DNA from: Candidatus Omnitrophota bacterium
GTDB taxonomy: Bacteria; Omnitrophota; Omnitrophia; Omnitrophales; Danuiimicrobiaceae
Assembly (NCBI GenBank): GCA_023247075.1
Contig: JAHFHD010000008.1
Location: 1-34,179 of the forward strand
Length of the DNA: 34,179 nt
Direction of reading: 5' to 3'
In this document: piece after piece, positions 3,811 to 33,961 of the stretch
Numbering within the stretch: the first letter of the stretch is position 1
How the letters are laid out: each line of letters begins with the position of its first letter
The notes under the pieces: model-generated
Told to the model about the DNA's origin: nothing
The model's database searches: none
The model's input: the letters and a program-made list of their open reading frames with translations, nothing else
Program-made: the position numbers and the translations under genes

Positions 3811-3820
3811 TAATTTTCTA

Positions 3821-3868: not shown

Positions 3869-3906
3869 GATAATTGTGCAAAACATAATAACAAGGAGAT
3901 GAAGGA

Positions 3907-11093: not shown

Positions 11094-14000
11094 GTGCAGT
11101 CGAGAGTGGTGTATCGAAAGTTCACTTCACTTTTTGTTCTCCTTTCTTTTTTCATTACCCAAATTACGCCACAAAGCTCACTTCTTTTTGCTCAAACTCC
11201 GATAACTATTGACCCAGCCGCCGGAAATCAGCAGCCTGAAACATCTGTTCAAGCTCAGCAAGCAGTAAGCCCAAGCGGGCCAGTTAATAGTAATACCACT
11301 CAAGATTTTCTTCTTGATACAGGGGGAATTTCACCTCCTACGCCTGAATCTCAAAGCACGAATACATTTCAAAATATTAAGACCAACACAAAAAGTCTTG
11401 CTAATGATACTGAAAATGCTACGCCAATCCGGGCAATTACAATTTCCAATGTAAATACTTTTGATGGAGCTTTCAATTATTCCTTTGATATTGATACTTC
11501 AAAAAATGCAGGAAGCGGTGCGCTCATTCGTAGCGATGGTGTTACGACTCCAGGGATGGACTACAAATTTGTAGAGTACACAGATACACAGTGGAGCGGA
11601 TGGTCAATCTTGAGGATTTTGACACCAAAGTATTCTTACACACCGGGAACAGCACGGGAAAATATTGATCCCACATATTTATTTCTTGTTAATCAAGACC
11701 GATCAGAGTTTACATTTTTAGGGACTTACAGAAATTCAGCTTCCACCACGGCAATACTTGAGGATGGAATGGACTTATCTCAAGATGCTTGGAAATTGAT
11801 GCCCAAATTTTTTCATGATCCATTGTCCTTGAGCGCCGAAGAGTTTCAAAAACTAACGAATGGATTTAAGACGACAAGAAATATTTATGAATCAGATAGT
11901 CCAATTTTTGGCGATAGCTTTACACCGATTTATCTCTCGACCATTCTGAAAGAATTAGCAAAACATCCAAATTATAATTTAGATTCAAATTTATCGGTTC
12001 GAATGTTTAGCGGACTCTCCCAATCTTTCACATTAAGCATGAGAGCGGACCAAGTGGAGCCAATAATTGAGCTGATGGCTGAAGTTTGGAGTACACTTTC
12101 TTTGTCGACGAAAAAGTTATTACTTACATTGCCGGGGAGCAATTTGAATAGTAAAAGTTGCAACCAGCTTGGAAAGTTGTTCATCAGTTACTTAGATAGC
12201 TACGCTCAAAGCTCTACGAGCCAAAGAGCTATTTTTGAGGAAACATCTTCTCTTTTGTCTTTGGCACAGCGAGTCGTTACAAATTTAAATGTCGACACTC
12301 ATCTGAAATCGCAAATCGTTGAGCGGATTCTTGAAATTTCTGCGGCGGTGCAGCCATTTCAAGCTCAGTTTGGAAACTCCAGTCATTTTAACATTATCAA
12401 TTTTATGGATGTGTTGCAAAAAAGTGGCGGGCTTGCGATCGATTTGAGTCTTTATGAAGCCCAGATGACGCTTATTTTGAGTAGAGTTTTGTCATCGCTT
12501 GCGCAAAAATCTGACTTCAATTTTTTTGATTTAGATGTTGTCAATAAGACATTCAACCACATGCTCCAATATGTGGAGCCATCTTTAGCGGGGTCATTGT
12601 TGAATCTTTTTATTGGAAACCAGCTTGCCAAATATCAAGGAAAGGCGGATCAGCTTAGATTGTTGATGAATGCGCTGAACTGGCCTATCTCGAATGTACA
12701 TCGAAACAGCATTAAGCAAATTGTTCTAGCTAAATTGAACGAAGGGTTTTCAAATTTTTCGTTGTCTGATTTGTCCACCATTGTTTCTTCTCAATCACCC
12801 AATGCGTACCAATTTTCGAATTACCAATTGGAATCAAAATTTTTCAACAATCTCATTAACGAATATTATTCGCGGATTCAGAATTTAGCACTTGATTCCA
12901 GTTCACGATCTCTTTTGGCCGAAATCATTGAGTTCGCAAAAAAAAGCCAAAATTTTGATCTGTTATCTCAGGAATTTTTAAGTCATTTGAAAGATTTCAA
13001 CCCAAAGTTTAATAATGAATCTGCCGAAGACTATGGAATTCGACTCCATAAAGTAGAGGAGCTTTGGACGCAGTTGGGGGTATTTTTAGTTGATTTGGGT
13101 GGTGGGATGAGACAGGGAGTTTATCGGATGGGAAATGGAAAAGCAGACTATGTTGATTTTGTCACGGGTGCTCTTAAAAATAGAGCTGGATGGATTCATG
13201 TAGTGGAATTAACAAGTGATAATGATCAGGGTAACGCGCGACCTATGTATGTCAAGTTAGGATGGAAATCCACGAATCCAATTGAAATAGTGGTTGGAAC
13301 TCTTATTCACGAATCAGGTCATGCAATGTTTGAAAGCGATGAATACCAAGATGGTGACATTGATCCGACCCGCGCTTTCTTTTTCAATGAAAACAGTCAG
13401 TGGAATAATCAGAATTTTGTTTCAGATTATGCAGGAAGTAACAATTTTGAATTTGTTGCAGAAACATATGAAGCTTGGGTTGTCGACAGTCGCTTATGGC
13501 TTGGAAAAGCGATTCAAAACTACCAAGAGGGGCATCCTTCCATGCTCAATATGTTCTTATTTTTGACTTCAAGGACGATGGGAGATGAATTGGCAGAGAC
13601 ATTTTTGTTCCCAATTTATAAATTAGACAAACAGACTGGACTTCTGGACGCAAAGTATTTTGTGGGTGTCTGGGAAATGGGGAGTAGGAAGCAGGGAATT
13701 TTTAAGTTTATTGTGGATGACAAATTATACTCTTTGACTTATACAAATTACCAAATTTCCAATTTGAATATAAGCGAAGCAGGAATTATACCGTTTACTA
13801 TATTTGATCACAATCAAAACGGTGTGTACAGCGCCACCGAAGCATTCGATGTACTCAGAGAGCGGATTGGTAATCATAATGACACCTATGTTACTTCGCT
13901 CAGAAACTTTTTTGAAAGTCATTTGAACCCTGAAGAAGTGAATCGCTTGAATCAATTGCTTAGCGATCCCGCTCTATTGAATCAGCACCATAATCAGCCA

Positions 14001-17000
14001 ACAATAACCGAAACCACTCATCAAATTTTTCTCGGGCGCCACACTCTAAAAATAGAAAGAGTCACAGATCAAACAGGTGGTATCAAAACCTTTGCCCGGA
14101 TTTACCAAACTGGAAACAGTCAGTCTTTTAAGGAGTGTGAAATTACATCTTATCCATTCGAACAGACCATTGAAACAGGAGGGATTTCTTACAAAGTGAA
14201 AATGGCAGACCAAAACTCAATCTCAATCACTCAAACCTTAAAAGAACTGGCTTTTGGTGCTGGCTCATTAACCGGTGCTGGCAATCTAAAGATTGAGAAA
14301 GTAACGAATGAAACAGGAACTCATACTTTTGCAAAACTATTTCTTCCAAACAGCACGGAAGCTTTAAAGGTATTTGAAATCAAGAATGATTTTGTGATTG
14401 ATGAAACAAATCCGAATGCGATGGTCATTAAAGCAACTTTGAGCGAACTGGACCAAACAGGAGCTAACAAAACGCTTACATTGTCAGTCTTTTCAAAATC
14501 TAACCCCAATGCAGACGCAGATCGATATGTCATTGGTGAACAGATTGCTTCTGACTTCTTAGGAAAAACAATTACCAAAGGAACAACCTGGCATGTTTCT
14601 GGCAGCGGAAGTACTTACAAGCTTGAACAAAGCAGTGCTTCTCTAAATGAATGGGGTGAAATATGGTCAGCGGAAAGCCCTGCCTACCAGACAGAGTCGT
14701 TTTTCTATGATCAAACAGGAAAAATGGTTATGAGTTTTGTTGATTTATTTGCAGGACGTAGAACACTTCCATCCCCACTTTCTGATTGTGATCTCAGCAT
14801 CATATTTGACTATTCCCAAGGTGGAAGCAACATGGTCACCCTCTATTCACGTACTAATGGTCATGAATTATTAAATGAAGTTTTTCAGACACTTAACGTG
14901 ATTCGTGACAACACAGGCTTTATCACAGGACTTAAAGGAAACACTATTGATGGAAAGACAGTTGAAATCACCCTTTCAAGAGATCAGGTTAAGTTTACGG
15001 TTGTACAAATTCTTAACGAAACCATCTTAAGCAATGGAACTTTAAAGATTGAGAAAGAATCAAATGAATCAGGGACTTCTATCACCTATGCCCGCTATTA
15101 TGAATCTGGAAGCGCACATTCATCCAAACAATTTCAACTGGATCGTACGAATCTCAATACAACAATTATCAATGCCTCTTTTGAAGACATCAAGCTCATC
15201 CGTCAAGCTTGGAACACGCTTTACACTCAAAGTGAAGTACTCACCCTTGAACAAAAGTTGATTGACGCAAAGTTAAACCTTCTTAAATCAAATCTCAAAC
15301 TTGACTTCGACGGCAACGGCAAACAAGACGCACTTTCAGATGGAATTCTTCTCCTCAGGTATTTGGCCGGCTTTAAAGGGAATGATTTAATCAATAATGC
15401 AGTTGACCCAAGCGTTCCAAACCTAACGGCTCAAATGGTGGAATCACGAATCGCACAAGCCATCACCTCAAATCTTCTTGACGTCTACACCACAGGCTCA
15501 AGTGACTTTGTAGATGGAGAATTCATCATCCGTTCTCTTTCTGGATTTACAGGCAATAGCTTAACGAATGGAATCTTAATTGCACCAAATCGCGTCATTG
15601 ACAAATATGGCAGTGTTTTTAGAGCCATGGATCAAAATCAAGATGGTGTTACGACAAGCAGTGAAGCATTCCAAGCTTTTCTTGAATTTCAAAACTCAAT
15701 TGGTGCATCACAAGGTCAAGCAGATTTTAACAGCCAATTTGATTTTAATCAGGACGGAGTCATCAATCTTTCAGATCGTGATTTATTTACGAATACAGTT
15801 CTTCCAGTGCTTTTGAATCCAGAAACTTTCTATGAAATTGGTTGGAGAAATTTGTTCCAAACAAAATTAGGTAGAGCCCCCAAAGGTGGAAAGGAAGAAT
15901 TGATTCAGAATTCTGACGGCACAGCTACTCTAAAGCAATACCGTTCAGATGGTAGTTTGCAAATCGAGGTCGTTTATGAGAACGCGACTTTAAAGAAGAT
16001 TTATCAAAAAGTGATTCATCATCTCGATGGCAGCAAAACGGAAGATGGCTACTATTATTACCCAGGAGCAGATGCGTATGAAAAAATTTTTTACGATCAA
16101 ATGGACAATATTATTGATGATTATGTGTTTGATTTGAGCACTTCCCAAAAAACTTTGGAGTACATCATGCGATTTTACCCCAATTCAAATATCAGGGAAA
16201 TTATTTACAATCTCGGCGGTGAAAATGGGTACCTCAAGGAAACTTATTCAATCAATGGCAACTATGAAGGAGCTTATTCCATCCCTCCTCCCCCAGAGGC
16301 GAATCCAAATTATGCATTTCCGCCGGATCTGGATGCGGTATTTGATAGCGAGATGCAACCATTCTTTAATTTATTGAAACAGAAAAATACAACTTGGGAA
16401 GAGGTGTACAACAGTTTTGTTTCATCGCACACATTTGAAACGGAAGCAGAGACACGAATTAAGAGTATTTATCAGACTCTTCAAAACCGTGAGCCAAGTG
16501 AAATGGAATTAGAGAAGGCACTTGATTTTCTGAGAGCAGAAAGAACGAAGTTTTCAGACATTAAAATAACAGAAGTAACGCGTGAAATTTCTCTTGGAGT
16601 GCACACCCTAAAAATAGAAAAAATCACAGATCAAACAAGCAATGTTAAAACCTTTGTCCGGATTTACCAAACTCAAAACAGCCAGTCCTTTAAGGAGTGT
16701 GAAATTACGTCTTACCCATTCGAACAAACGATTGAGATGGGAGGAATTTCTTACAAAGTGAAAATGGCAGACCAAAACTCAATCTCAATCACTCAAACCT
16801 TAAAAGAACTGGCTTTTGGTGCTGGCTCATTAACCGGTGCTGGCAATCTAAAGATTGAGAAAGTAACGAATGAAACAGGAACTCATACTTTTGCAAAACT
16901 ATTTCTTCCAAACAGCACGGAAGCTTTAAAGGTATTTGAAATCAAGAATGATTTTGTGATTGATGAAACAAATCCGAATGCGATGGTCATTAAAGCAACT

Positions 17001-19967
17001 TTGAGCGAACTGGACCAAACAGGAGCTAACAAAACGCTTACATTGTCAGTCTTTTCAAAATCTAACCCCAATGCAGACGCAGATCGATATGTCATTGGTG
17101 AACAGATTGCTTCTGACTTCTTAGGAAAAACAATTACCAAAGGAACAACCTGGCATGTTTCTGGCAGCGGAAGTACTTACAAGCTTGAACAAAGCAGTGC
17201 TTCTCTAAATGAATGGGGTGAAATATGGTCAGCGGAAAGCCCTGCCTACCAGACAGAGTCGTTTTTCTATGATCAAACAGGAAAAATGGTTATGAGTTTT
17301 GTTGATTTATTTGCAGGACGTAGAACACTTCCATCCCCACTTTCTGATTGTGATCTCAGCATCATATTTGACTATTCCCAAGGTGGAAGCAACATGGTCA
17401 CCCTCTATTCACGTACTAATGGTCATGAATTATTAAATGAAGTTTTTCAGACACTTAACGTGATTCGTGACAACACAGGCTTTATCACAGGACTTAAAGG
17501 AAACACTATTGATGGAAAGACAGTTGAAATCACCCTTTCAAGAGATCAGGTTAAGTTTACGGTTGTACAAATTCTTAACGAAACCATCTTAAGCAATGGA
17601 ACTTTAAAACTAGAGAAGAATAGTGATCAATCCGGAACCGCAAAAGTTTTCATGCACATCACTCCTTCAGATGCTTCACAGCCTGCTCAGGTATATGAAG
17701 TCACTCAAGGCGAATCTTTAAACAAGATTGTGACACTAAGTAATATGTTGTATGCAGTGAAGGTCAATGAACAGCTTGCAGTTTCAACCGTCAACATTAC
17801 CGCTCTTGTCACAGAGATCATTGATCAAAACAAAGATGGAATCCTTGGAGCACAGGAAGCACTCAAAGGATACGTTGATTTCCGTGCAGCAGCCAAGTAC
17901 TACATTCTTGGAGATACTCAAATGAGTCCACCGCAATACGACTCAAATCACTATGACTTAAATCAAAACGGAACCTTCACATCCGCAGACCTTACACTTT
18001 TCACCAGAGCTTTTAAATTGAGTGTCACCGAAGCAGTCTGGAATCAATACAGTGCATCTGTAGCAGCTTTCACGACCATCGATCAAAATAAAGATTGGAC
18101 CATCAACGCACCAGAAGCATTTGCCGTACATCTCACCCTCACCACCCAAGAATGGCAAAAACAAGGCAGCGGTCTCAAATGTGACTTCAATCAAGACGGT
18201 GTCACTAACGACCTTGATAAATCAGTTTTTATGAGCACTCTTCAAACCGTCTCGAGCACCTTAGAGATGAACAGGTTTAATGCTTTAACCCGTACATTTA
18301 CAGCCATGGATCAAAATCAAGACGGCATCGCAACAGCAAATGAAGCCTTTGCGTTGCTGACAACCCTCAAAACAACCGAATGGTCCAAACAAGGCAGCGG
18401 TCTCAAATGTGATTTCAATCAAGACGGCAGTGTTGACATTAAAGACATTTCATTTTTTGTGAGCACCCTTCAAACCGTCTTAAGCGCATCAGAGATGACG
18501 CGGTTTAATGCTTTAAGTGCAGTGTCCAGTCAAATTGGACAGCTCTACCAAGAGCGATTGGGCAGAGACGCTAAGCTTGAAGAATTAAATGCATGGATGG
18601 ATTTGGTTCGAATACAAAGCGACATTCGCATTGAATCCATTCAAGGTCAAATGAATGAAGCAATTGATAAAATCAAAGTCGAGCAAATCATCGCAGCTAA
18701 TCAAAACACCATTCTAAAAGGTAAAAACATTTCTTTTGATGTCATGTTTGAAGTATTAAAAGAAGCAGTAAAAAATCACAAAGGAAGCGGTCTTGCGGTT
18801 CAACTAACCACAGCAACTGTTTCAGGTTCTACTTACCAAATTAAATTTACTCGCTCAGATACTCAAGAGGCAACGCTCGCGAGCTTTCGTGTTGAAAGTG
18901 GAAAGGTGCTTTGGACAAGCAAACAAGTTTATTACCCCAGTAGCAGTTCTCTCAAACTCCAAATTCTTTATCATCTGGACGGAAAGACAGTAAAGTCAGA
19001 AAACGAATACAGTCTCAAAGGCAAACCCATCCGCTCTGTCATAAGAGACACGCAAGGAATCGTTCTCTCAGCCACTGAAACTGATTATCAAACCGATGGA
19101 ATCACAAGAGCGAAATACAGATATTATGGGTCAAATAATGTTTTGGCGTATGAATACGCGTATCAATCAGATGGATCGACATACAAAACGGTGACTTATT
19201 ACTACCCAGGCGGAACACTGGTTAAATCCGAAACCCAATACAATGAAAAAAATAAGCTTAAGAGCCAGGTAACCAAAGACCTTTCTGGAGCGGTGACGTC
19301 CTATGTGCAGTACGACTACCAAGCGGATCAAGTCACCCTTCTAGAATTCAGAAATTATTTGCCGAATCAAACGGGTTTAATCAGCCGGTATGTCTACCAA
19401 GCCGATGGAAAAACGATGAAGTCTTCTACTTTTTATCATCCAGATGGAGTCACAGTTAATGCAGAGTATGAATACAATGAAAAAGGAAAAGTGACCCGAA
19501 GTGTTCAAAAAAATCTACAAGGCGTAGTTACATTTTGCCAAGTAACCAGCTATTATTCAGATCAAGTCACCCGGTTTGAAGAGAAGCGTTATCAAGCAGA
19601 TCAGACTACCCTTGCAAGTGATTACCTTTACCGCTCAGATGGACAAAACCTTCAAAAGGTGACGAACTATTACCCCAATAGCTCAATCATCCAATCAGAA
19701 AGTGAATTTAACGCAAAAGGAAGAATTACATGGACCACACAGCGAAACACCCAAGGTCAAATTACTTCTTACATAGAGGTGCGTTATCTTACGGATCAAA
19801 CTACTCGGTCAGAAGTAGCTTATTACCGGGCCAATAAAACGCTTTCATCCGTCACTGCCTTTTACCCAGCCACCCAAAAAACACAATCCATTACTTCTTA
19901 TGCCGCCAATGGAACTACTGTTACCGGCACGACTCGCTATGACACAACCGGGAAACAGATTGCGTAA
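11094..19967 (+). CDS. Giant (2957-aa) exported multidomain protein: signal peptide, HExxH zincin-like domain, EF-hand/dockerin-like calcium loops, internal duplication, C-terminal tandem repeats
   Basis: Single ORF with N-terminal hydrophobic segment (FTSLFVLLSFFITQITPQSSLLFA); HESGH at 13308-13322 with downstream FVAETYEAW; repeated DxNxDG loops (DQNQDGVTTSSEAF, DFNQDGVINLSD, DFDGNGKQDALSDGILLLRYLAGF); C-terminal YYP.G..KSE.YN.KGK repeats. Confidence 0.85.
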   Translation: MQSRVVYRKFTSLFVLLSFFITQITPQSSLLFAQTPITIDPAAGNQQPETSVQAQQAVSPSGPVNSNTTQDFLLDTGGISPPTPESQSTNTFQNIKTNTKSLANDTENATPIRAITISNVNTFDGAFNYSFDIDTSKNAGSGALIRSDGVTTPGMDYKFVEYTDTQWSGWSILRILTPKYSYTPGTARENIDPTYLFLVNQDRSEFTFLGTYRNSASTTAILEDGMDLSQDAWKLMPKFFHDPLSLSAEEFQKLTNGFKTTRNIYESDSPIFGDSFTPIYLSTILKELAKHPNYNLDSNLSVRMFSGLSQSFTLSMRADQVEPIIELMAEVWSTLSLSTKKLLLTLPGSNLNSKSCNQLGKLFISYLDSYAQSSTSQRAIFEETSSLLSLAQRVVTNLNVDTHLKSQIVERILEISAAVQPFQAQFGNSSHFNIINFMDVLQKSGGLAIDLSLYEAQMTLILSRVLSSLAQKSDFNFFDLDVVNKTFNHMLQYVEPSLAGSLLNLFIGNQLAKYQGKADQLRLLMNALNWPISNVHRNSIKQIVLAKLNEGFSNFSLSDLSTIVSSQSPNAYQFSNYQLESKFFNNLINEYYSRIQNLALDSSSRSLLAEIIEFAKKSQNFDLLSQEFLSHLKDFNPKFNNESAEDYGIRLHKVEELWTQLGVFLVDLGGGMRQGVYRMGNGKADYVDFVTGALKNRAGWIHVVELTSDNDQGNARPMYVKLGWKSTNPIEIVVGTLIHESGHAMFESDEYQDGDIDPTRAFFFNENSQWNNQNFVSDYAGSNNFEFVAETYEAWVVDSRLWLGKAIQNYQEGHPSMLNMFLFLTSRTMGDELAETFLFPIYKLDKQTGLLDAKYFVGVWEMGSRKQGIFKFIVDDKLYSLTYTNYQISNLNISEAGIIPFTIFDHNQNGVYSATEAFDVLRERIGNHNDTYVTSLRNFFESHLNPEEVNRLNQLLSDPALLNQHHNQPTITETTHQIFLGRHTLKIERVTDQTGGIKTFARIYQTGNSQSFKECEITSYPFEQTIETGGISYKVKMADQNSISITQTLKELAFGAGSLTGAGNLKIEKVTNETGTHTFAKLFLPNSTEALKVFEIKNDFVIDETNPNAMVIKATLSELDQTGANKTLTLSVFSKSNPNADADRYVIGEQIASDFLGKTITKGTTWHVSGSGSTYKLEQSSASLNEWGEIWSAESPAYQTESFFYDQTGKMVMSFVDLFAGRRTLPSPLSDCDLSIIFDYSQGGSNMVTLYSRTNGHELLNEVFQTLNVIRDNTGFITGLKGNTIDGKTVEITLSRDQVKFTVVQILNETILSNGTLKIEKESNESGTSITYARYYESGSAHSSKQFQLDRTNLNTTIINASFEDIKLIRQAWNTLYTQSEVLTLEQKLIDAKLNLLKSNLKLDFDGNGKQDALSDGILLLRYLAGFKGNDLINNAVDPSVPNLTAQMVESRIAQAITSNLLDVYTTGSSDFVDGEFIIRSLSGFTGNSLTNGILIAPNRVIDKYGSVFRAMDQNQDGVTTSSEAFQAFLEFQNSIGASQGQADFNSQFDFNQDGVINLSDRDLFTNTVLPVLLNPETFYEIGWRNLFQTKLGRAPKGGKEELIQNSDGTATLKQYRSDGSLQIEVVYENATLKKIYQKVIHHLDGSKTEDGYYYYPGADAYEKIFYDQMDNIIDDYVFDLSTSQKTLEYIMRFYPNSNIREIIYNLGGENGYLKETYSINGNYEGAYSIPPPPEANPNYAFPPDLDAVFDSEMQPFFNLLKQKNTTWEEVYNSFVSSHTFETEAETRIKSIYQTLQNREPSEMELEKALDFLRAERTKFSDIKITEVTREISLGVHTLKIEKITDQTSNVKTFVRIYQTQNSQSFKECEITSYPFEQTIEMGGISYKVKMADQNSISITQTLKELAFGAGSLTGAGNLKIEKVTNETGTHTFAKLFLPNSTEALKVFEIKNDFVIDETNPNAMVIKATLSELDQTGANKTLTLSVFSKSNPNADADRYVIGEQIASDFLGKTITKGTTWHVSGSGSTYKLEQSSASLNEWGEIWSAESPAYQTESFFYDQTGKMVMSFVDLFAGRRTLPSPLSDCDLSIIFDYSQGGSNMVTLYSRTNGHELLNEVFQTLNVIRDNTGFITGLKGNTIDGKTVEITLSRDQVKFTVVQILNETILSNGTLKLEKNSDQSGTAKVFMHITPSDASQPAQVYEVTQGESLNKIVTLSNMLYAVKVNEQLAVSTVNITALVTEIIDQNKDGILGAQEALKGYVDFRAAAKYYILGDTQMSPPQYDSNHYDLNQNGTFTSADLTLFTRAFKLSVTEAVWNQYSASVAAFTTIDQNKDWTINAPEAFAVHLTLTTQEWQKQGSGLKCDFNQDGVTNDLDKSVFMSTLQTVSSTLEMNRFNALTRTFTAMDQNQDGIATANEAFALLTTLKTTEWSKQGSGLKCDFNQDGSVDIKDISFFVSTLQTVLSASEMTRFNALSAVSSQIGQLYQERLGRDAKLEELNAWMDLVRIQSDIRIESIQGQMNEAIDKIKVEQIIAANQNTILKGKNISFDVMFEVLKEAVKNHKGSGLAVQLTTATVSGSTYQIKFTRSDTQEATLASFRVESGKVLWTSKQVYYPSSSSLKLQILYHLDGKTVKSENEYSLKGKPIRSVIRDTQGIVLSATETDYQTDGITRAKYRYYGSNNVLAYEYAYQSDGSTYKTVTYYYPGGTLVKSETQYNEKNKLKSQVTKDLSGAVTSYVQYDYQADQVTLLEFRNYLPNQTGLISRYVYQADGKTMKSSTFYHPDGVTVNAEYEYNEKGKVTRSVQKNLQGVVTFCQVTSYYSDQVTRFEEKRYQADQTTLASDYLYRSDGQNLQKVTNYYPNSSIIQSESEFNAKGRITWTTQRNTQGQITSYIEVRYLTDQTTRSEVAYYRANKTLSSVTAFYPATQKTQSITSYAANGTTVTGTTRYDTTGKQIA
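14184..15046 (+). repeat. Internal duplication copy 1 (863 bp) within the 2957-aa ORF
   Basis: Reads as identical to 16746-17608 at constant offset 2562; encodes ISYKVKMADQNSIS...ILNETILSNGTLK. Confidence 0.9.
16746..17608 (+). repeat. Internal duplication copy 2 (863 bp) within the 2957-aa ORF
   Basis: Reads as identical to 14184-15046. About 155 bp upstream of each copy also aligns but is diverged (LGRHTLKIERVTDQTGGIKTFARIYQTG vs LGVHTLKIEKITDQTSNVKTFVRIYQTQ). Confidence 0.9.
18930..19960 (+). repeat. C-terminal degenerate tandem repeats of the giant protein (RHS/YD- or MORN_2-like)
   Basis: Recurring blocks YYPGGTLVKSETQYNEKNKLKSQ / FYHPDGVTVNAEYEYNEKGKVTRS / YYPNSSIIQSESEFNAKGRITWT, each followed by a D/NQxTxxExxxY segment. 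Confidence 0.65.
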
Positions 19968-23421: not shown

Positions 23422-24056
23422 AACAATCGCCGAAACAAAAAGATAGACTGACAATCAAATCTATTTTGTTTGATTTGGGGAATGTCCTTCTTTTGTATGA
23501 CGCACGAAAATCGGCGCGGGCTTTTGCAAAGGCACTTCAAGTGCCGGAAGAAAAATTGTGGGAAGGATTTTTCATCTCTGATTTCGAGAAAGCGTACACA
23601 AGAGGAGAAATTTCATCCCGTGAATTTTTTAAAAGGGCAAGCCAGTATTTTCCGAATTCCAAAATGAGTTTCAGCGAATTTTCTCATCACTGGAATGACA
23701 TCTTTACAGAAAGTCCTGGGATGGATGGATTGCTTGGCGCACTGAAGCAGCATTACCCGCTGTACCTAATTTCTAATACCAATGAACTGCATTATGGGCA
23801 CATCAAAAAAACATTTCCGGTGCTCCGGCATTTTAAGAAATGTTTCCCTTCGCATCAAGTGGGTCACAGGAAGCCTGACCCAAAAATATTTTATCATGTG
23901 CTTAAAGACATCCAGCTCAAGCCAGAAGAAACGGTGTTTGTAGATGACATTACTCAGTTTGTAGAAGGTGCACGCCGGGTTGGGATGAATGCGATTCAGT
24001 TTACTTCGATTGGCGAGCTCAAGCGAGATTTGAAAAAACTTGGAGTTAGTGTATGA
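23364..24056 (+). CDS. HAD-IA family hydrolase (start uncertain; overlaps the era 3' end)
   Basis: SILFDLGNVLLLYD (DxG variant), YLISNTNELH, HRKPDPKIF, FVDDITQFVEGA. The ORF track starts at 23328; the true start may be as late as about 23418. Confidence 0.85.
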   Translation, partial: DAQKLETGRGKVKTNRILLKQSPKQKDRLTIKSILFDLGNVLLLYDARKSARAFAKALQVPEEKLWEGFFISDFEKAYTRGEISSREFFKRASQYFPNSKMSFSEFSHHWNDIFTESPGMDGLLGALKQHYPLYLISNTNELHYGHIKKTFPVLRHFKKCFPSHQVGHRKPDPKIFYHVLKDIQLKPEETVFVDDITQFVEGARRVGMNAIQFTSIGELKRDLKKLGVSV

Positions 24057-24496
24057 CTAGGATTCTGAAAATTAATGTCATTCTGACCCCGCAGGGGGAA
24101 GAATCTAGCGAATGCGAGATCCTTCGCTCCGCTCAGGATGACAGTCAAAAAGTTGAATCATGCAGAACTCAAGTAACAAATTATTTTTCGCTGCGAAAAC
24201 TTGGAAAACTTTTTTGCTTTATTTTGATTCTATTTATTTTGTTTGCCCATCCCTCATGCTTTGCCGCGAGTGCCGGAAGCAATCTTTTTGTTTCCGGGTT
24301 TACGCGTCTTTTACTTGCTCCCTTGCAACTCCCGCTCAGATTACTTCAAGGTACTTTTCAAGGCCCTCCTGGAATCGGTACTGTGAGCGGCGCCTTAAGC
24401 GGTACCATCGGCACGATTACAAACTTACTCGGCGGTGCTTTTGACATGGTTACAGCTTCAGCGCCTCTCGTTAAGTACGCCGTATTTTTTATTTAA
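24053..24496 (+). CDS. Hypothetical protein with internal hydrophobic/signal segment; N-terminus encoded by a palindromic repeat
   Basis: ATGA overlap with the HAD stop; KLGKLFCFILILFILFAHPSCFAAS signal-like segment; residues INVILTPQGEESSECEILRSAQDD come from the repeat at 24076-24143. Confidence 0.5.
   Translation: MTRILKINVILTPQGEESSECEILRSAQDDSQKVESCRTQVTNYFSLRKLGKLFCFILILFILFAHPSCFAASAGSNLFVSGFTRLLLAPLQLPLRLLQGTFQGPPGIGTVSGALSGTIGTITNLLGGAFDMVTASAPLVKYAVFFI
24076..24143. repeat. Short TGTCATTCTGA...TCAGGATGACA palindromic repeat
   Basis: tgtcattctgaccccgcagggggaagaatctagcgaatgcgagatccttcgctccgctcaggatgaca; overlaps the 5' end of ORF 24053-24496. Confidence 0.85.
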
Positions 24497-25582: not shown

Positions 25583-28500
25583 ATGCCGCTAAAGGCTGTA
25601 AAACTACTTGTCCCAAAATCCATCTCACTCCTCCTTTTGATTGTTTTCACAGTCACCACACTTTCACGCGAGACAGCATTTGCAAGTCCAGTAATTCCTG
25701 AAGCTAATCCTGTTGAGGAATTACAAGCGCAGACAAGTCATCTCACCATTCCCAAAATGCTCGGGACAGTTTTGGCAAGTCATAAGACTGGTTCCCCTCC
25801 CATCATCCTCATTGAAGATGCTCATTCAGTTCCGGAAGCACAGAAGAATATTGAGCGAATCATCCGGTATGTTCAGAAGAAATATGGCGTTCGTGTGGTG
25901 GCGTCTGAGGGGGCTTCAGGCAAGCTTGAGCCCGAACTGCTTAAAAGTTTTCCAGATGCGAAGCGCTTAAAAACGATGGTTCGAAGTTACCTTGAAGCAG
26001 GTGAAATGACTGGAGTCACGGCTTCTGCAATTTTAAATACCGTAGGACACGCACCTGAATACATTGGCGTAGAAAATTGGGCGCTTTATGAAGAGGGACT
26101 TCGCAATTACTTTGAAGCAGCAAATCAGGAACAGTCAATTTTAAAAGCAATAACTCAAGAGACAAAAATGCTTGAGCAGAAAAAGAAAGAAATTTATTCT
26201 GAAGAATTACTCAAATCAGACCAAATTCTAAATGATTTTGATGAGAACAAGACGAGTTTTATGAAAGTGCTTAGGAAGCTTTCACAGATTAAAAGCCCTC
26301 AAAGCGTAGGGCAGAGTCATGATTTTTTAATGCTTAAGACAATTCTTAAGGAAAGTCTTAAAACAGAAATGGGAAATGAGAAGTTGAAAGTAGAGATTAA
26401 AACTCTCGCAGAAGAGGTGAAGAAATCATTGGGGAGTCCTGCATTCACTCGAATATTCAATCAAAAACTCCAGGCTTTTCAAACTTCTCAAATGTCAGCG
26501 GGGGAGTTTGGTTTATTTTTAAAGAAGTTTTCAGATTTACGTCGCGAGACGTCTCCGCACATGAGCATGTCGAAGGTGCTTGAAGATGAAATTAAAATTC
26601 AAAGGCAGATGGAGAGCGTTGGAGGAGCCAAGCTTTCTAAAGAATTTGAGACATACGCGAAACGGCTTAAGGAAAACTTGTTTCAAAGTATGGAAGAAAG
26701 AAATCTCGACCAAGAAAGCAAAACCTTAAAACTTCTTAAAAAACTTGCCAAACTTGAGCTCAGCCGCGAGGAGTGGGAAGAAGTCAAGCTGTTGGAGGTT
26801 GGTAATATTTCTCCAATTGCAGTTTCCTATGTCACCCTGAGCGAAGCGAAGGGTCTCGGTTCCCTAGATTCTTCGGCTCCGCCTCAGAATGACATGCGGA
26901 CTATGGACTTTTTATTTCACTTTCAATTGAGTTTCTACCACAACGCTGAAAAGCGCGAAGCCGCGATGCTTGGGAATCTTAATTCATTTTTAGATGAATC
27001 AAAAATTGATTCGACAACCCGAAATCATCAACCCTCAATTCTGGTGGCGGGAGGATTTCACGCAGAAGGGCTTGTGCAAAAGTTGAAAAAGGAAAAACGT
27101 TCCTACATTTTAATTTGTCCAAGGGTTGATGTTCTCCCAAAAGAATCCAAATACCGCATGCATATGCAGGGAAATGTGTCGTGGAAAAAGTATTTTCAGG
27201 TGAAAAATGGGCACGTAAATTTGTATGACGCGTTTATGCGCGGCGCGAGGGACCGATTATTAGTAGGGGCGGGTTTAGAGCCCGCCCCTACGCTCCGGCT
27301 CTGGCGTGACCAAATCATCCGCGATTTAGCTCAAGCAGAAAAACTGGATGAAGCCTGGCAGTACACTAAAATTCTGGATGAAGTTTTGGTTTCCAAAAAA
27401 ATGGAAGAGTCTCATTTTCTTGAGCAGAAGTTAAGCAAGCTCCACCATTTTGTTGATGGCCTTCGCTATTTACATCAAACCCAATTATTGACGGAACCCA
27501 ACATTTTAAAACTTTTGGGCCAATCCAAAGTCGTTGCACCAGCACTCGCCAGCGCACTTTCACAAAACTCAGAAATCCGTTCTGAATTTATTGTAGATGA
27601 TCAGGACAGTCCTGACCGACATTCTCCAGCAAAGCGTGAAAGCAAATCCGGAGATGAGGCTTTAAAAGCAAGAGTAAACCAGGAAACCGTTACTTTAATG
27701 ATGCGGGAATTATTTTTTTCTAAAAATCTTTCTCTTACTCCAAAATTGAAGCGACATATTCTCAGCACATTTCTTCCAGACTCAGTCATTGAAAAAGTGG
27801 GTGAAGACAATTTTTCAATTAAGCGAGACCAAAATGAATTAACAATCAGCACCTCTGAAAAGCAACAATTTTTTAATGTAAAGATTTATGTCGGATTGAA
27901 TCAAGACGTGCTGATTTTGAACGCTGGGCAAATAACCGGAGTTAATGGAGAACAAATTCCTGAATTCGGGAATGTCTTACCTAGCTACAGGCAATACGGT
28001 CTTCCATTTTTTGCCTGGTGGTATCAAACAAAACTGAAACCTTTTGCTCGCCTGTTGATGGTGAAAAATGTTTGGATGCAAAGTTCTCTCGTACAAATGA
28101 ATCAAACAGTAAACATGTTTGGCTTTCAAACTACTGGAAATCAGATATGGACAATTGACCCTAATAAGAATTCAAACCATCAACCGAAGTCGGAGCTGCG
28201 CAACAACTCTTTGCCTGTCATCCTGAGCGGAGCGAAGGATCTAAGTTCGCTAGATTCTTCGGCTTCGCCTCAGAATGACATAAATATGAATATGCAAAAC
28301 ACAACAGTTAATAAAGCAAGGGCCGAGCTGCGCTACACTGAAAATAGTCTCAAAGCAATGATTAATAAAGGCGCCGCTCAGTCCTCGTTGCCCATAGCGA
28401 TTAATCAGACGAGGGCCGAGCTGCGCAACTTTGGGAATTATTTCAAGGCAAGGATTTCTGAGATGGCAGAGCAATTCAAAATAACGACTCAGCAGGAGGC

Positions 28501-31500
28501 TGTAAAAAATGCTGATGAAAAACCTTCCGAGCTTTCATTAGGTCAAGCCAATCAAATTTCAAAGGAAGTGGTGCGGGAATTAATCAGGCTCCAATCAATC
28601 GGACTTGCTTCCCCGGACATCACTATTATTGATCATACCGAACTTGGATTTTCAACTTTGGGAGAATTGAGTTCATACCTTGAGAATATCCCAACTGCCG
28701 CCGCCTTCCTCTATTTTGATTTTCCTGTAATCAATGGTCTTACCAATTTAGGGCAATTACTTAGAGGTCTGGGTCTAGAAGCTGCTTCAAATCCACGCAT
28801 CAGAGCAATTGACAGTGTTGATTTCAATGCTGTGTGTGCATTTATTTTACAAATGTCATCTGCTGCCCAAATTCATGTATTTGATTTTTCTAATGGGCAG
28901 TGGCAGAAAGAAACACAAATAGTGAAGCGCGCCAAACTATTTCTCTCAACGCTTTCAAAGTTTTTTCTTCCGTCCCTTCATAAATCTTCTGACGACGATT
29001 TGAAAAAAATATTGGCACAATTCAACCAAACACGGGCTGCCAGAATTTCTGAAGTCAATTCAAGCCTAGTGAATACTGACCTTTCAACACTGGCATTATT
29101 TGCAGAAGGAAATCGGCTCAGATCAGAACTTGATGAAGTGATGCTGGCAATTTATGAGTCTAATCAAAATACTCACGCGGCACTTCAAGCTTTAAGGCGC
29201 ATCGACTTCGAAGCTTCTAAACTTCAGGATCAAGCGATGAACATAATCAATGGAAATTTAGAAGAAATTTTTCAGGTAGAGCAATACATCATAGGATTGC
29301 GTGATTTAATAAGAGAAACGGAATATAAATTAGTGCACACACCCGCGCAATTTAGAAATGCCCTTCACGCACAATATTCAAATGTTAATGAATCTGCATC
29401 CGCCCTTTTTAAAACTATTTTTCACAGTCAAACGCTTGTCATTCCAAATGAAGATCAAATCCTTTCTTATTCAGGCATCCTGAGAAAGGGCGTTGAAATT
29501 TTCACTCGCGGTGTCCTAACCCGTTCTCCATATATAAACATCAGCGTTTTGGTGTTTATTCAGCAAGATGCTCCTTGGAATATGGGACTTAAAATGGTGG
29601 TGAAACCTGATGACAATCAGACGGGAATTTATCAGCATATTTCATTTGAAAATTTAGCTTTTAGATTAGAAGGAGTCGACAACTTTAATTCCTACCTCCT
29701 TACTTTCCACGAGCGCTCATCTGGCATTTATGAGGCCCAAATTTCCAATGTTGAACCGGGGAAATACTCAGTTGAAGTATTAAATTCTACGGTCAGGCAT
29801 GACCCAAACCTTCGGAGAAGCCATTCGGAGCTGCGCAACATTGAAAGTAATTCCAAAGCAAACATTAATGAAAGCGCCGCTCAGTCCTTACACCATTCCA
29901 AGGGTGTGAGAGCTGAAACGCGGCAGGAGAATGATGAATGGATTGCGGGATTTTCTGAGCCGTTTTCAGAACGTCCAAAGGCATTGAGTCCGGGTGAAGA
30001 TCCGCGTCCAAATCAAGATGCATGGTTTGCTCAAACACTTGATAACGGTGTTGTGATTGCAGGAGTTTTTGATGGAGTTCGCGCAGAAAAATTTAGCTAT
30101 GAAGCAAGTCACACAGCTTGCGATGCGATTGAAGTTTATCTTTCAGCCCATTTGACAGATTCCCCGCAAAACATTAATTCCAGTCAAGCAACTCAAATTC
30201 TTCAAGATGCCATGCAAGAAGCCCATCGGGCAATTACCAAAGGAGCGACAACAGCTACGGTAGCTCTTCTTTTGCCGCGACACGGTCTACAAGAAAAGCG
30301 CTTCTTTGAGCTGTGGGTTGCGAATGCAGGCGACTCACGTGCTTATTTATGGACTTCCTCTCAAAAGATTGAGCGGCTCACAGTGGATTCGTTTCAAGGC
30401 GACGGAAAGGCGACTATTTTGGACCTCGACGATGTTAGAAGACATAATGGTCACTTAATACAAGAGAAAAATGTGCTTGAGGAAAGACAGGCAAAAGCGC
30501 ACCAAATTGGCGACTATGGCTTGCGTCAAGAATTAGCGTGGGAAAAATGGGAACACGAATTTTTAGGAAACGTACTTGGAAATGCTGATGAAAGCTATGT
30601 CCCTGTCATTACTAGAGCCGTGATTCCTTTAAATTCTAGAGTACTGCTTTTTACCGACGGAGTTTATCGATTGTTGAAAAGAGATGAAATGGAAAAGATT
30701 ATCGTTGGTGACATAATTAATCAAAGGCCTGGAGCTGGCTGGAGCGGACGTGGTTCGACTGCGCAAACAATACTAGCTGCGATTAGAGGCGAACTTAAAA
30801 AGAAACGTTTTATTGGTTTGGATGATCAAACAGCGGTTATTCTTAACATGTCTCCGTACCCTTCTCTCAGAGATCACCTTGCTCAGAGTTCAGTCAGCAA
30901 AAGTAAGTCAGAGCTGCGCCACACTGAAAATAATTCCAGAGCGTTCATTAATCCAAGCGCCGCTCAGTCCTTGCTACCCACAACAGTTAATAAAGCAAGG
31001 GCAAAGCTGCGCCACAACTCTTTGCCTGTCATCCTGAGCCATTCGCTTGTCATCCTGAACGAAGTGAAGGATCTAGCGCTCAGGGTAAACTCCGCGAAGG
31101 ATCTAAGTTCGCTAGATTCTTCCGCCACAGTGCTGGCGGACAAGTCGGCTTCGCCTCAGAATGACATAAATATGAATATGCAAAACTCAACAGTTAATGA
31201 AGCAATGGCCGAGCTGCGCAATGCTAAAAATAGTTCCAATAAGATTATAGATCAACAAAGAAAAAAATCTGGATTACAACCTCACGAACTTGGCGCAATG
31301 GTTACCAGGTTAGTGCATGTATTTACATCGTGGACTCAGGTGGTTGAAAGTGAACTTCTGCGGCGGCCAGGACTTACGGAACAAGTGATTAAAACTGAAT
31401 TGAAATATTTTTTAGGGCCTGAAACAGGGCGTCATGCACGACACAACCCAGAATTTTCAGATCAACTATTTTGGTCGCGTACCAAACATGACGATGAAAC

Positions 31501-33961
31501 CTATTTCCCAGAAGAAGACCGCCAGAGGCTTGAAACAGTGGTGGATCAAATGATTCCAGAAGAAGGGACAGTTCTCGATTTAATGGCGGGCGCTCGCTCA
31601 AGTTTTTCAAAACAAAAGAGAGAAGTGGTTGGGCTTGGTTTGACCCAGAAGGCGCTAGAAAGCAATAAAGTTTTAACACGTTTTCTCGTTCACGATCTAA
31701 ATCAAAATCCAAAACTCCCGCTTGAAGAATCGTTTGACGCCATTGTTATTTCATTTGGGCTTATGTATTTAACCAATCCTCAGCAAGTGCTTGAGTCTGT
31801 TTTGAAACATTTGAAGCCTCAAGGGAAATTGATTGTGATTTGGCATGAGAATATTTGGGATTTTGATTTAGCCACTAATGTTTGGAACGTTCCTCAGGCT
31901 TATGGATTTAAAACCAGAGAGGCGCTCATAAACCATTACTTTAAACAAGCCGGTTTTGAGAATATAAAACGAGTAAAAGATCAACAGAGCGGTTTTCACA
32001 TCGCCACAGGCAGCAGACCAGTACAAAATGAAAGTATTGCTCAGTTCTTACTACCCACAACAGTTAATTCAAGAACTGAGACACGCAACCATAATGAAAA
32101 CAATGGATTAAATTTTGTTTTAAAAATGAAAAAATTTTTCAATCAACATTGGCAACCGGTAGTGACAGGAGTTTTAATGATTGGATTTGCTTACTGCCGC
32201 GTGTATGGTTGGGTGCACGAAATTGGGCACTTAATTGCTCATCACCTCACGTTTGAGCAAGCGGCTGGTTTGCTTAAGCTGAAATTTCTTCCAGGCTCAA
32301 TGTATGTGCTGACTCATTTTGGAAATCTTTCGAGCTTTGGGGAGTGGCTGGGTTATGATCGATCTCGAGCATTTATTCTGTATGCGGGCGAGGCTTTTGC
32401 GTTTGTTATTTTAATCCCGCTTTTTATATTGCTCACCAAACAATTGTCCCACCTCAATCGTCTTTTGGGTCATTTTCTAGCATATGCGGTACTTTATCTC
32501 TCTACCACACCTCTGCTTGATGCGCTTTACGGCCCTTGGGTGCAACAACCAATCACTGATTTCTGGCAGGCGTATTATTTTTTTAAAGGCCAGCATCCTC
32601 TTCTACTTGCACCTTTTTTGGCTGTTCTTCCGTTCGTCGTGTATTGGATTTTTAATCGGATGGATATTTTTAAAGTTTCCGGTGAAGGTGGAAATATTAT
32701 TAAGAAAAGCTCTGCCCCGAAGTTAACACAACCTCAATCAACGATTCAAGGACAAAACTCCAATCATCCCGAGCTGCGCCACTTGGCTGTCATCCTGAGT
32801 GACCCTAAAGGGCTGCTGCGCGGAGCGAAGGATCTAAATTCGCTAGATTCTTCGGCTTCGCCTCAGAATGACATAAATATGAATATGCAAAACATGACAA
32901 TTAATAAAAAAAAGGCCGAGCTGCGCCACTTTGAAAGTAGTTCCAGAGCATTAATTAATCAAAGCGCAACTCAGTCCTTGCTACCCACAACAGTTAATGA
33001 AGCAAGGGCCGAGCTGCGCCACTTTGAAAGTAGTTCCAGAGCATTAATTAATCAAAGCGCAACTCAGTCCTTGCGCCGTACCATGGACGCAAGGGCCGAG
33101 CTGCGCAGCCCAGTAGCACAAGAAGCAGCAGAAGCGGAACTGTACCGCAATTTGGATTCTTACTCAACGAGTGAGAAAGCAGAACAACTCGCCATATTAA
33201 TTTTAAATAGTTCAGATGATTTTGAGAATTTCTTAAGTGAGTTTGTGCAAGCAGTGGAAGAAATTTTTGAGAAAGAATCTGGCGTGATTGGTTTGAATGG
33301 CACTCGCGAGGAGGCCAACCTTAATCCAGAGGTGATTCAATTGGCTGAGAAGCTTCGCGCTGCACTTAAGTCGCGTCTGAGTAAAGAAATAAAAGCAGCG
33401 TTCGTATTTCCAAAGGAGATTTTAAATGCAAAGGACGCCCAAACTCGCGCAGAAGAACTTTCTCAAACCGGTATGGCTATTGTTCAAGCAGAGGAAGCGT
33501 TTCAGAATGTGAGCCTTGACGTTTTTTCTGGCGGCGATGAAACTCAAATTTTGCGCCATCATTTTAATCGAGCGCTTAAAACAAAAAAGGCTGCAACCGA
33601 ATTGCAAAAGCGAACTCGCTTTTTAGTGAGCGATTTTCCTGACGCGACTTCATATGATGTAGTTGGTTCTGCAGAGATTAATCCAGCCTCTTCTCATCAA
33701 ACAGTTCAGTGGTTTCGGTTTGACCGTTTCGGTGATGGCACCAAAATTGAAGCAAAGGATGGAGAGCCTGTCGGACCAAGTCTAATGCTTGCAATGCTTG
33801 CTTCAAACGTGTTGCTGAGAGAAGACTTGGATGATTTGATTCAATTTGATCAAAATGGTGTTGCCTCAATTAAAAATAAAACTGCACTCAGTGTTTTTAA
33901 TCTTCTCCGACAAATGCTGGTTCAAGCAAAGACGGACCAAGTCAGACTTGAAGCTGCATAG
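25583..33961 (+). CDS. Giant (2792-aa) polyprotein-like ORF: TraB/ChaN-like domain, orphan domain, PP2C phosphatase, SAM methyltransferase, HEIGH membrane domain and orphan C-terminus, separated by repeat-encoded linkers
   Basis: Single uninterrupted ORF; N-terminal hydrophobic segment (ISLLLLIVFTVTTLSRETAFAS); distinct domain signatures listed as separate features; RAELR linkers between them. Confidence 0.85.
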   Translation: MPLKAVKLLVPKSISLLLLIVFTVTTLSRETAFASPVIPEANPVEELQAQTSHLTIPKMLGTVLASHKTGSPPIILIEDAHSVPEAQKNIERIIRYVQKKYGVRVVASEGASGKLEPELLKSFPDAKRLKTMVRSYLEAGEMTGVTASAILNTVGHAPEYIGVENWALYEEGLRNYFEAANQEQSILKAITQETKMLEQKKKEIYSEELLKSDQILNDFDENKTSFMKVLRKLSQIKSPQSVGQSHDFLMLKTILKESLKTEMGNEKLKVEIKTLAEEVKKSLGSPAFTRIFNQKLQAFQTSQMSAGEFGLFLKKFSDLRRETSPHMSMSKVLEDEIKIQRQMESVGGAKLSKEFETYAKRLKENLFQSMEERNLDQESKTLKLLKKLAKLELSREEWEEVKLLEVGNISPIAVSYVTLSEAKGLGSLDSSAPPQNDMRTMDFLFHFQLSFYHNAEKREAAMLGNLNSFLDESKIDSTTRNHQPSILVAGGFHAEGLVQKLKKEKRSYILICPRVDVLPKESKYRMHMQGNVSWKKYFQVKNGHVNLYDAFMRGARDRLLVGAGLEPAPTLRLWRDQIIRDLAQAEKLDEAWQYTKILDEVLVSKKMEESHFLEQKLSKLHHFVDGLRYLHQTQLLTEPNILKLLGQSKVVAPALASALSQNSEIRSEFIVDDQDSPDRHSPAKRESKSGDEALKARVNQETVTLMMRELFFSKNLSLTPKLKRHILSTFLPDSVIEKVGEDNFSIKRDQNELTISTSEKQQFFNVKIYVGLNQDVLILNAGQITGVNGEQIPEFGNVLPSYRQYGLPFFAWWYQTKLKPFARLLMVKNVWMQSSLVQMNQTVNMFGFQTTGNQIWTIDPNKNSNHQPKSELRNNSLPVILSGAKDLSSLDSSASPQNDINMNMQNTTVNKARAELRYTENSLKAMINKGAAQSSLPIAINQTRAELRNFGNYFKARISEMAEQFKITTQQEAVKNADEKPSELSLGQANQISKEVVRELIRLQSIGLASPDITIIDHTELGFSTLGELSSYLENIPTAAAFLYFDFPVINGLTNLGQLLRGLGLEAASNPRIRAIDSVDFNAVCAFILQMSSAAQIHVFDFSNGQWQKETQIVKRAKLFLSTLSKFFLPSLHKSSDDDLKKILAQFNQTRAARISEVNSSLVNTDLSTLALFAEGNRLRSELDEVMLAIYESNQNTHAALQALRRIDFEASKLQDQAMNIINGNLEEIFQVEQYIIGLRDLIRETEYKLVHTPAQFRNALHAQYSNVNESASALFKTIFHSQTLVIPNEDQILSYSGILRKGVEIFTRGVLTRSPYINISVLVFIQQDAPWNMGLKMVVKPDDNQTGIYQHISFENLAFRLEGVDNFNSYLLTFHERSSGIYEAQISNVEPGKYSVEVLNSTVRHDPNLRRSHSELRNIESNSKANINESAAQSLHHSKGVRAETRQENDEWIAGFSEPFSERPKALSPGEDPRPNQDAWFAQTLDNGVVIAGVFDGVRAEKFSYEASHTACDAIEVYLSAHLTDSPQNINSSQATQILQDAMQEAHRAITKGATTATVALLLPRHGLQEKRFFELWVANAGDSRAYLWTSSQKIERLTVDSFQGDGKATILDLDDVRRHNGHLIQEKNVLEERQAKAHQIGDYGLRQELAWEKWEHEFLGNVLGNADESYVPVITRAVIPLNSRVLLFTDGVYRLLKRDEMEKIIVGDIINQRPGAGWSGRGSTAQTILAAIRGELKKKRFIGLDDQTAVILNMSPYPSLRDHLAQSSVSKSKSELRHTENNSRAFINPSAAQSLLPTTVNKARAKLRHNSLPVILSHSLVILNEVKDLALRVNSAKDLSSLDSSATVLADKSASPQNDINMNMQNSTVNEAMAELRNAKNSSNKIIDQQRKKSGLQPHELGAMVTRLVHVFTSWTQVVESELLRRPGLTEQVIKTELKYFLGPETGRHARHNPEFSDQLFWSRTKHDDETYFPEEDRQRLETVVDQMIPEEGTVLDLMAGARSSFSKQKREVVGLGLTQKALESNKVLTRFLVHDLNQNPKLPLEESFDAIVISFGLMYLTNPQQVLESVLKHLKPQGKLIVIWHENIWDFDLATNVWNVPQAYGFKTREALINHYFKQAGFENIKRVKDQQSGFHIATGSRPVQNESIAQFLLPTTVNSRTETRNHNENNGLNFVLKMKKFFNQHWQPVVTGVLMIGFAYCRVYGWVHEIGHLIAHHLTFEQAAGLLKLKFLPGSMYVLTHFGNLSSFGEWLGYDRSRAFILYAGEAFAFVILIPLFILLTKQLSHLNRLLGHFLAYAVLYLSTTPLLDALYGPWVQQPITDFWQAYYFFKGQHPLLLAPFLAVLPFVVYWIFNRMDIFKVSGEGGNIIKKSSAPKLTQPQSTIQGQNSNHPELRHLAVILSDPKGLLRGAKDLNSLDSSASPQNDINMNMQNMTINKKKAELRHFESSSRALINQSATQSLLPTTVNEARAELRHFESSSRALINQSATQSLRRTMDARAELRSPVAQEAAEAELYRNLDSYSTSEKAEQLAILILNSSDDFENFLSEFVQAVEEIFEKESGVIGLNGTREEANLNPEVIQLAEKLRAALKSRLSKEIKAAFVFPKEILNAKDAQTRAEELSQTGMAIVQAEEAFQNVSLDVFSGGDETQILRHHFNRALKTKKAATELQKRTRFLVSDFPDATSYDVVGSAEINPASSHQTVQWFRFDRFGDGTKIEAKDGEPVGPSLMLAMLASNVLLREDLDDLIQFDQNGVASIKNKTALSVFNLLRQMLVQAKTDQVRLEAA
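25780..27130 (+). other. Domain in giant ORF: TraB/PrgY/TIKI- or ChaN/EreA-like (tentative)
   Basis: PIILIEDAHSVPEAQKNIERIIRYVQKKYGVRVVASEGASG and SILVAGGFHAEGLVQKLKKEKRSYILICPRV resemble the paired motifs of that superfamily. Confidence 0.45.
26829..26894 (+). repeat. In-frame palindromic repeat in giant ORF (VTLSEAKGLGSLDSSAPPQNDM)
   Basis: tgtcaccctgagcgaagcgaagggtctcggttccctagattcttcggctccgcctcagaatgaca matches the intergenic repeat core. Confidence 0.85.
27263..27291 (+). repeat. In-frame perfect hairpin encoding VGAGLEPAPT
   Basis: gtaggggcggg-tttagag-cccgcccctac, 11-bp perfect stem inside the coding frame. Confidence 0.85.
28187..28455 (+). repeat. RAELR linker block 1, including in-frame TGTCATCCTGAG...CTCAGAATGACA cassette
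   Basis: Encodes SELRNNSLPVILSGAKDLSSLDSSASPQNDINMNMQNTTVNKARAELRYTENSLKAMINKGAAQSSLPIAINQTRAELRNFGNYFKARI. Confidence 0.85.
29818..29935 (+). repeat. RAELR linker block 2
   Basis: Encodes RSHSELRNIESNSKANINESAAQSLHHSKGVRAETRQEN. Confidence 0.8.
29980..30860 (+). other. Domain in giant ORF: PP2C-type serine/threonine phosphatase
   Basis: RPNQDAWFA, IAGVFDGV, GATTATVALL, WVANAGDSRAYLW, VLLFTDGVYRLL, GLDDQTAVIL; the expected metal-binding aspartates are all present. Confidence 0.85.
30899..31235 (+). repeat. RAELR linker block 3, including the longest in-frame palindromic cassette
   Basis: Encodes KSELRHTENNSRAFINPSAAQSLLPTTVNKARAKLRHNSLPVILSHSLVILNEVKDLALRVNSAKDLSSLDSSATVLADKSASPQNDINMNMQNSTVNEAMAELRNAKNSS. 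Confidence 0.88.
31540..32010 (+). other. Domain in giant ORF: class I SAM-dependent methyltransferase
   Basis: EEGTVLDLMAGARSSF (motif I), SFDAIVISFGLMYLTNPQQVLESVLKHLKPQGKLIVIWHE, HYFKQAGFENIKRVK. Confidence 0.8.
32015..32105 (+). repeat. RAELR linker block 4 (degenerate)
   Basis: Encodes RPVQNESIAQFLLPTTVNSRTETRNHNENN; shares ctacccacaacagttaat with blocks 3 and 5. Confidence 0.7.
32130..32680 (+). other. Domain in giant ORF: polytopic membrane domain with HEIGH motif (possible M50-like protease)
   Basis: GWVHEIGHLIAHHL within a hydrophobic region, HEIGH at 32216-32230; later TTPLLDALYGPW could be a diverged second metal motif. Confidence 0.45.
32765..33108 (+). repeat. RAELR linker block 5, with in-frame palindromic cassette and a 93-bp tandem duplication
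   Basis: Encodes HPELRHLAVILSDPKGLLRGAKDLNSLDSSASPQNDINMNMQNMTINKKKAELRHFESSSRALINQSATQSLLPTTVNEARAELRHFESSSRALINQSATQSLRRTMDARAELR; 32914-32980 reads as identical to 33007-33073. Confidence 0.9.

Follow-up and report, generated by a model that had tools for sequence, protein, structure and literature searches.

Palindromic elements in frame inside a giant open reading frame and unrelated genes of an Omnitrophota genome

A palindromic repeat that is mostly intergenic in an Omnitrophota genome also occurs in frame four times in a giant open reading frame (25583..33961, forward strand; 2,792 aa, stop-free) of the window, the whole 34,179-nt stretch of DNA that was analysed. The first-pass annotation had proposed that this repeat was captured as coding sequence; in-frame copies are indeed present in the giant ORF and in unrelated genes elsewhere in the genome. 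The explanation that we consider very probable as a whole is that small, non-autonomous and selfish palindromic elements, MITE/REP-like in kind, have spread through this genome and lie for the most part between genes. Insertion would have been random or nearly so, with gene-breaking insertions lost by selection, and the genic copies retained would be those that keep the frame, bring no stop codon and fall in loops or at inter-domain positions. Because the genic copies are in frame and stop-free, a carrier gene is lengthened by 20-55 residues without being closed. The repeats, including stretches of the DLSSLDSSASPQNDINMNMQN type, are predicted from the reading frames to be translated into protein, probably as extra loops of little effect that would be near-neutral for the proteins. 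In the giant ORF, one copy would have entered a loop of the N-terminal domain and another a RAELR-type inter-domain linker, after which a unit of palindrome, tail and linker would have been copied inside the gene until it stood at three sites.

Abundance and families of the palindromic element

The left arm of the repeat, TGTCATNCTGAG, was matched 116 times with at most 2 mismatches in the 2.28-Mb, 186-contig genome (59 and 57 matches on the two strands), and a reversed-pattern control under the same limits in the same genome gave 0 matches. A slightly wider exact pattern was present in 21 of 47 genomes of the same order, with 108 copies in this genome and at most 25 in a relative. Eighty stretches, mostly around listed copies, were read, and the proportions of palindromes reported here are those of this sample. 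Inverted pairs of REP-like arms, TGTCATNCTGAG...GAAGNATCT, form the core of the element. Several families share this one palindromic core and differ in their conserved ends: family A ends in GGGTGCATACCACTTGATGCAGTTGTTTTTCA...CACTGGATGAAGTGGGATGCACCC, family B is marked by GTAACTGTTTAGCTCTCTGAAG..., and family C ends in TTGAGTTCTGCA...TGCAGAACTCAA. The flanks of families A and B are conserved, and in family C the palindrome is enclosed by terminal inverted repeats of 12 nt (TTGAGTTCTGCA / TGCAGAACTCAA), as expected of a MITE. The right end TAAATATGCAGAACTCAA was found at intergenic copies on contigs C14, C134 and C147. In the window, a further family-C palindrome with the terminus TGCAGAACTCAA lies at 24076..24143 (no strand assigned), at the start of an ORF at 24053-24496.

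These elements resemble REP and BIME sequences, whose transposases are of the Y1 type (TnpA-REP), in being short, imperfect palindromes of high copy number, often in inverted pairs and mostly intergenic, in a genome with Y1 transposase genes. The two Y1-type transposase genes, L061 (C179) and L062 (C82), are putative mobilisers of REP-like elements, and transposition is the probable source of the copies. Unlike REPs, which are classically extragenic and whose tags are GTAG or CGTC (PMC3733652), the Omnitrophota arms begin with TGTCAT, and in the stretches read no palindrome immediately flanked a Y1 gene, the nearest being seen about 1 kb away or further. Bacterial MITEs with in-frame ORFs include ERIC, the 107-bp form of Correia and Yersinia RU-2 (PMC2229807), together with MITEs of Coxiella (PMC5896051). 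Family C is like them in its 12-nt terminal inverted repeats and in having a whole copy in frame, in an ORF on contig C56. A literature search with the letters of the repeat returned no paper on bacterial repeats by title.

In-frame copies in the giant open reading frame

The giant ORF begins with a helix that appears to be signal-peptide-like or membrane-anchor-like. An Ere/ChaN-like N domain (aa ~1-660; predicted fold) is followed by unassigned segments, a PP2C-type phosphatase domain (30007..30679, aa 1475-1699; PF13672, 2.1e-12) flanked by motif-bearing linkers, a methyltransferase domain (31616..31837, aa 2012-2085; Pfam), a hydrophobic membrane segment, called from a reading of the translation, and a C-terminal segment. 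These domains and all the features of the giant ORF described below are on the forward strand. The window holds a second giant ORF (11094-19967; 2,957 aa), which has dockerin and EF-hand-like repeats as well as a long, nearly duplicated internal stretch and in which neither a palindrome nor the RSExR motif described below was found.

All four copies claimed for the giant ORF by the first-pass annotation were located, each in frame and each able to form a hairpin, with outer limits running from TGTCAT to ATGACA. Copy 1 (26830..26894; 65 nt, YVTLSEAKGLGSLDSSAPPQNDM) lies in the loop of the N domain and is without the MITE tail. Copy 2 (28216..28280; 65 nt, VILSGAKDLSSLDSSASPQND) folds into a hairpin and is followed by an element right end (TAAATATGAATATGCAAAAC..., 28281..28309) common to intergenic family-C copies, and then by a linker repeat with RAELR motifs (28313..28429). 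A linker repeat without a palindrome (HSELRN...RAETR, 29828..29916) precedes the PP2C domain. Another linker repeat (KSELRH...ARAKLRH, 30899..31015) lies ahead of copy 3 (31027..31166; 140 nt), in which nested palindromic insertions total 75 nt, or 25 codons, and which is followed by its own right end and linker (31167..31239). Copy 4 (32788..32873; 86 nt) holds a nested 21 nt, or 7 codons, and two tandem linker repeats (RAELRHFESSSRALINQSATQSL...) stand at 32906..33106. Folding gave hairpin energies of -30.3, -35.4, -50.4 and -37.8 kcal/mol for the copies at 26830, 28216, 31027 and 32788, respectively.

Two readings in which these inserts never become part of a working protein were weighed. 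Strong hairpins of this kind might mark inserts that are transcribed and then removed or skipped, by RNA excision or by ribosomal bypassing, as with the hairpin 'byp' elements of yeast mitochondria. Removal or skipping would not need inserts that keep the frame and lack stop codons, yet both hold here, and we give this reading almost no weight. Decay of the giant ORF into a pseudogene that gathers repeats is similarly far-fetched. One gene does hold many repeats, and large genes of this sort occur several times in the genome; against decay stand 2,792 stop-free codons with four of four inserts in frame, PP2C and methyltransferase domains that are still recognisable downstream of the inserts, preserved invariant residues in the N domain, and the presence of essential enzymes among the other carriers. 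Decay had been put forward as the reading to adopt if other coding-frame copies were missing genome-wide and relatives showed frameshifts; many such copies were found, with homologous genes intact on both sides.

The preferred reading, insertion of selfish elements, is joined in this gene by multiplication of one of them. The copies at 28216, 31027 and 32788 share a common right tail, ATAAATATGAATATGCAAAAC...CAACAGTTAAT, followed by a linker; over 95 nt they are 91% and 86% identical, and their linkers are 74-91% identical. The tail, ATAAATATG(AATATG)CAAAACTCAA, equals the right end of family C, to which the tail-bearing copies belong. An extra 6 nt, ATGAAT, is present in the tails of these three copies and lacking from every other tail found in the sampled stretches. 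One derived ATGAAT and one linker in three copies indicate duplication within the gene, in agreement with the proposal that the three had multiplied as one unit. The downstream sequence that had been taken as the mark of a cassette is present in all three; most of it, however, is the element's own terminus, so that only ATGAAT and the linker beyond are special to the cassette. Similarly, the linker motifs do bracket the cassette copies as described, but the linker is not a mere bracket, being itself an insertion repeat that is also found in dnaX. The copies at 31027 and 32788 carry different nested palindromes, indicating divergence after duplication.

The copy at 26830 has different flanks and is independent of the other three, as had been suspected. 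It lies in a region of the N domain (W398-F451) that is hypervariable when 20 N domains are aligned, and in the same alignment the loop holding it is absent or variable in homologues. In an AlphaFold2 model of the N domain only, residues 407-440 form coil with pLDDT<50 between two helices, placing the insert in what the model presents as a permissive loop. The same loop holds a full family-C element in a paralogue on contig C56 and, in the relative G028, the peptide VIASEAKQS, of the kind that another bacterial REP would encode. The C56 paralogue (L102, ORF 1-4911, minus strand) is itself a giant ORF, containing the whole in-frame family-C element with both ends and, twice in frame in nearly identical forms, a palindrome of the GTCATTGCGAGG type.

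In-frame copies in other genes

Capture of the repeat had been presented as a property of the giant ORF; it is instead genome-wide, with 21 of 99 palindromes (sampled outer-arm pairs) inside ORFs, defined as at least 45 nt within an ORF of at least 150 aa. Most of these are in other large ORFs, on contigs C6 (at least 6,267 aa), C56, C90 (two), C109 (two), C128, C129, C149 and C153. Two cases on C130 and one on the contig-end C123 are weaker and belong to no recognised protein family. A PabB/TrpE-like enzyme and Lnt each carry a palindrome between their two Pfam domains. The DHFR insert separates residue 69 from residue 121; the protein aligns to 1zdr on either side of it, and nine of nine aligned relatives have no such insert. 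The empty sites described here come from distant relatives only, all of them outside the genus. On C128, an ORF at 897-3047 (L084, minus strand) joins HemD (29-274) and URO-D (355-688) in one frame with a palindrome between them; this may be a true fusion, or HemE may restart at an ATG inside the element end.

Successive left arms were a multiple of 3 apart in 13 of 13 coding comparisons versus 21 of 34 intergenic ones (Fisher p 0.009); as any ORF must be open by definition, this test is in part circular, and little weight is placed on it. Lengths of 2 mod 3 were found for 16 of 21 coding palindromes versus 24 of 78 others, a descriptive figure that is partly circular since an ORF requires openness. 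When the 78 palindromes outside ORFs were screened for frame breaks by ORF structure, two had open frames on both sides in differing frames, and these resemble neighbouring genes; loss of most frame-breaking insertions by selection is probable. In 13 of the 78, the 3' part of a gene extends into the palindrome, and the element thereby encodes the end of the protein.

The linker repeat has entered a gene as well. No match to the linker around RAELRHFESSSRALINQSATQSL was found in the genome outside the giant ORF and dnaX (L100, C20, 3084-5015, minus strand). In dnaX it stands in frame at residues 67-99, adding about 30 residues, and falls exactly between the positions matching residues 66 and 70 of E. 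coli DnaX in the alignment; this first insert is missing from nine of nine relatives. A second, diverged linker copy lies near the end of dnaX, with another palindrome family between the two. A further palindrome family, GTCATTGCGAGG...CTCGCAATGAC, has two in-frame copies in the C56 ORF and one in dnaX, and a partial one in an ORF on C128. Together with the palindrome core and the linker, this makes three palindromic or repeat families that have entered genes here.

An assembly artefact, with pieces of unrelated genes joined at repeats during metagenome assembly, would find some encouragement in the 186 contigs, several of which end in or beside palindromes (e.g. C16, C123 and C153). Chimeric joins, however, would hold the frame only about one third of the time, both sides belong to one protein at 26830, in DHFR and in DnaX, and the same giant architecture of N domain and motif recurs in many independent assemblies, making an artefact most unlikely.

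RSExR motifs, related systems and significance

The linker core RAELR is one form of a motif, R-[SA]-E-x-R, that punctuates giant proteins of this phylum, both in the window (25583-33961) and at relatives' loci (L103-L116 and L142-L211). Among relatives, 14 giant ORFs headed by this N domain contained 140 motifs in 61,743 aa; neighbouring ORFs held 6, all in one relative and 5 of them in a 1,320-aa ORF running off its contig piece. The tails of 38 proteins headed by the N domain in named genomes contained 161 motifs versus 1.9 in shuffles, with the motif in 36 of the 38 proteins at a median spacing of 341 aa, and RSExR words were the top enriched five-residue words of these proteins without prior choice. 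Synonymous codons vary at RSExR sites, indicating constraint at the level of the peptide. Direct derivation of the motif from REP-translated peptides such as CHPERSEGS was considered and is countered by the same varied codons.

Pfam domains with compared limits all fall between motifs. Homologous segments common to different giants crossed a motif in 0 of 23 cases versus 7.2 expected (small numbers), and several begin or end on one. With coordinates counted from residue 651, L111 2319-2626 and L113 979-1284 share 56% identity and both start on a motif, and a motif marks each end of L110 1070-1261 and of L176 1293-1466. Small as these numbers are, the pattern suggests that the giant proteins exchange modules at RSExR joints. 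Going further, it is an open bet, at somewhat less than even chances, that the Ere/ChaN-headed giants are modular polyproteins, joined and probably cut at RSExR, whose junctions selfish palindromes have colonised because an insertion at such a site does no harm.

In named genomes, 70 of 70 loci with a relative of the N domain belonged to Omnitrophota. Across the alignment of 20 domains, D79, H81, E109, G110, G490, G491, F492 and H493 are invariant, forming DxH, EG and GGFH. The top five structural rows included EreC (Z 8.6), 2rad (8.1), and 3b55 and ChaN (7.9) by VIA-align, in which such Z scores are common by chance. Foldseek by itself was not significant for the N domain (E ~1), and a sequence-profile search of the domain against the PDB gave nothing significant. 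The N domain may thus resemble the Ere/ChaN superfamily, scores of this size being no proof. In one relative (G001:C37 183603-185039) the same N domain is part of an open frame that runs for 35,113 codons.

The motif also bears on whether the inserts and linkers are kept for a role in the protein, as inter-domain joints, cleavage sites (RAELR) or flexible spacers, with the cassette spreading by selection at the protein level. An xELR-type motif immediately precedes three of the four giant-ORF copies and the copy on C129; the giant proteins of relatives show strong enrichment and a modular arrangement of the motif, and the cassette was amplified inside the gene. The same palindromes, however, are mostly intergenic, and they also occur in DHFR, the PabB/TrpE-like enzyme and Lnt, where one would not expect a joint. 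Hairpins of coding copies match those of intergenic copies in stability (median -0.434 versus -0.4315 kcal/mol per nt), giving no sign of change at the peptide level, and relatives have the motif without any palindrome. A protein role is therefore unlikely, although less so than decay, skipping or misassembly, and spread of selfish elements remains the preferred explanation.

The closest known parallel is the Rickettsia protein-coding palindrome, RPE (Ogata 2000, 2002; reviewed in PMC10969869; PMC2229807), of which 44 insertions are reported from R. conorii, nearly half of the elements lying in ORFs and fused in frame (PMC10969869; PMC2229807). Like RPE, the elements described here are hairpins of ~65-170 nt with terminal inverted repeats, lie both between genes and in frame in unrelated conserved genes, and have homologues without the insert (here DHFR and the N-domain loop, and for the linker repeat DnaX). 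Unlike RPE, the Omnitrophota element belongs to a different phylum and has a REP-like arm pair as its core; several unrelated palindrome families occur in one genome, palindromes nest, and one unit, its linker included, was multiplied within a gene. Judged by analogy of behaviour alone, the two are of the same kind. In-frame hairpin insertion was already known from Rickettsia, and what is new here is that different elements do so in a new phylum. The giant ORFs themselves are like those described from Omnitrophota (PMC10066038) in being very long, with few annotated domains, and in the same phylum; the keyword passages of that paper mention neither repeats inside giant ORFs nor a punctuating RSExR motif.

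In-frame palindromes, best known from Rickettsia, thus extend to an unrelated phylum, in which a giant protein, DHFR, Lnt and a PabB/TrpE-like enzyme carry them and the replication clamp loader (dnaX) carries a second repeat. Short hairpin DNA appears repeatedly able to become protein sequence, and database peptides like VILSEAKDL...PQND may be genuine parts of proteins. The RSExR punctuation offers a first handle on how the giant proteins of Omnitrophota are built, and may be worth more than the repeat itself.
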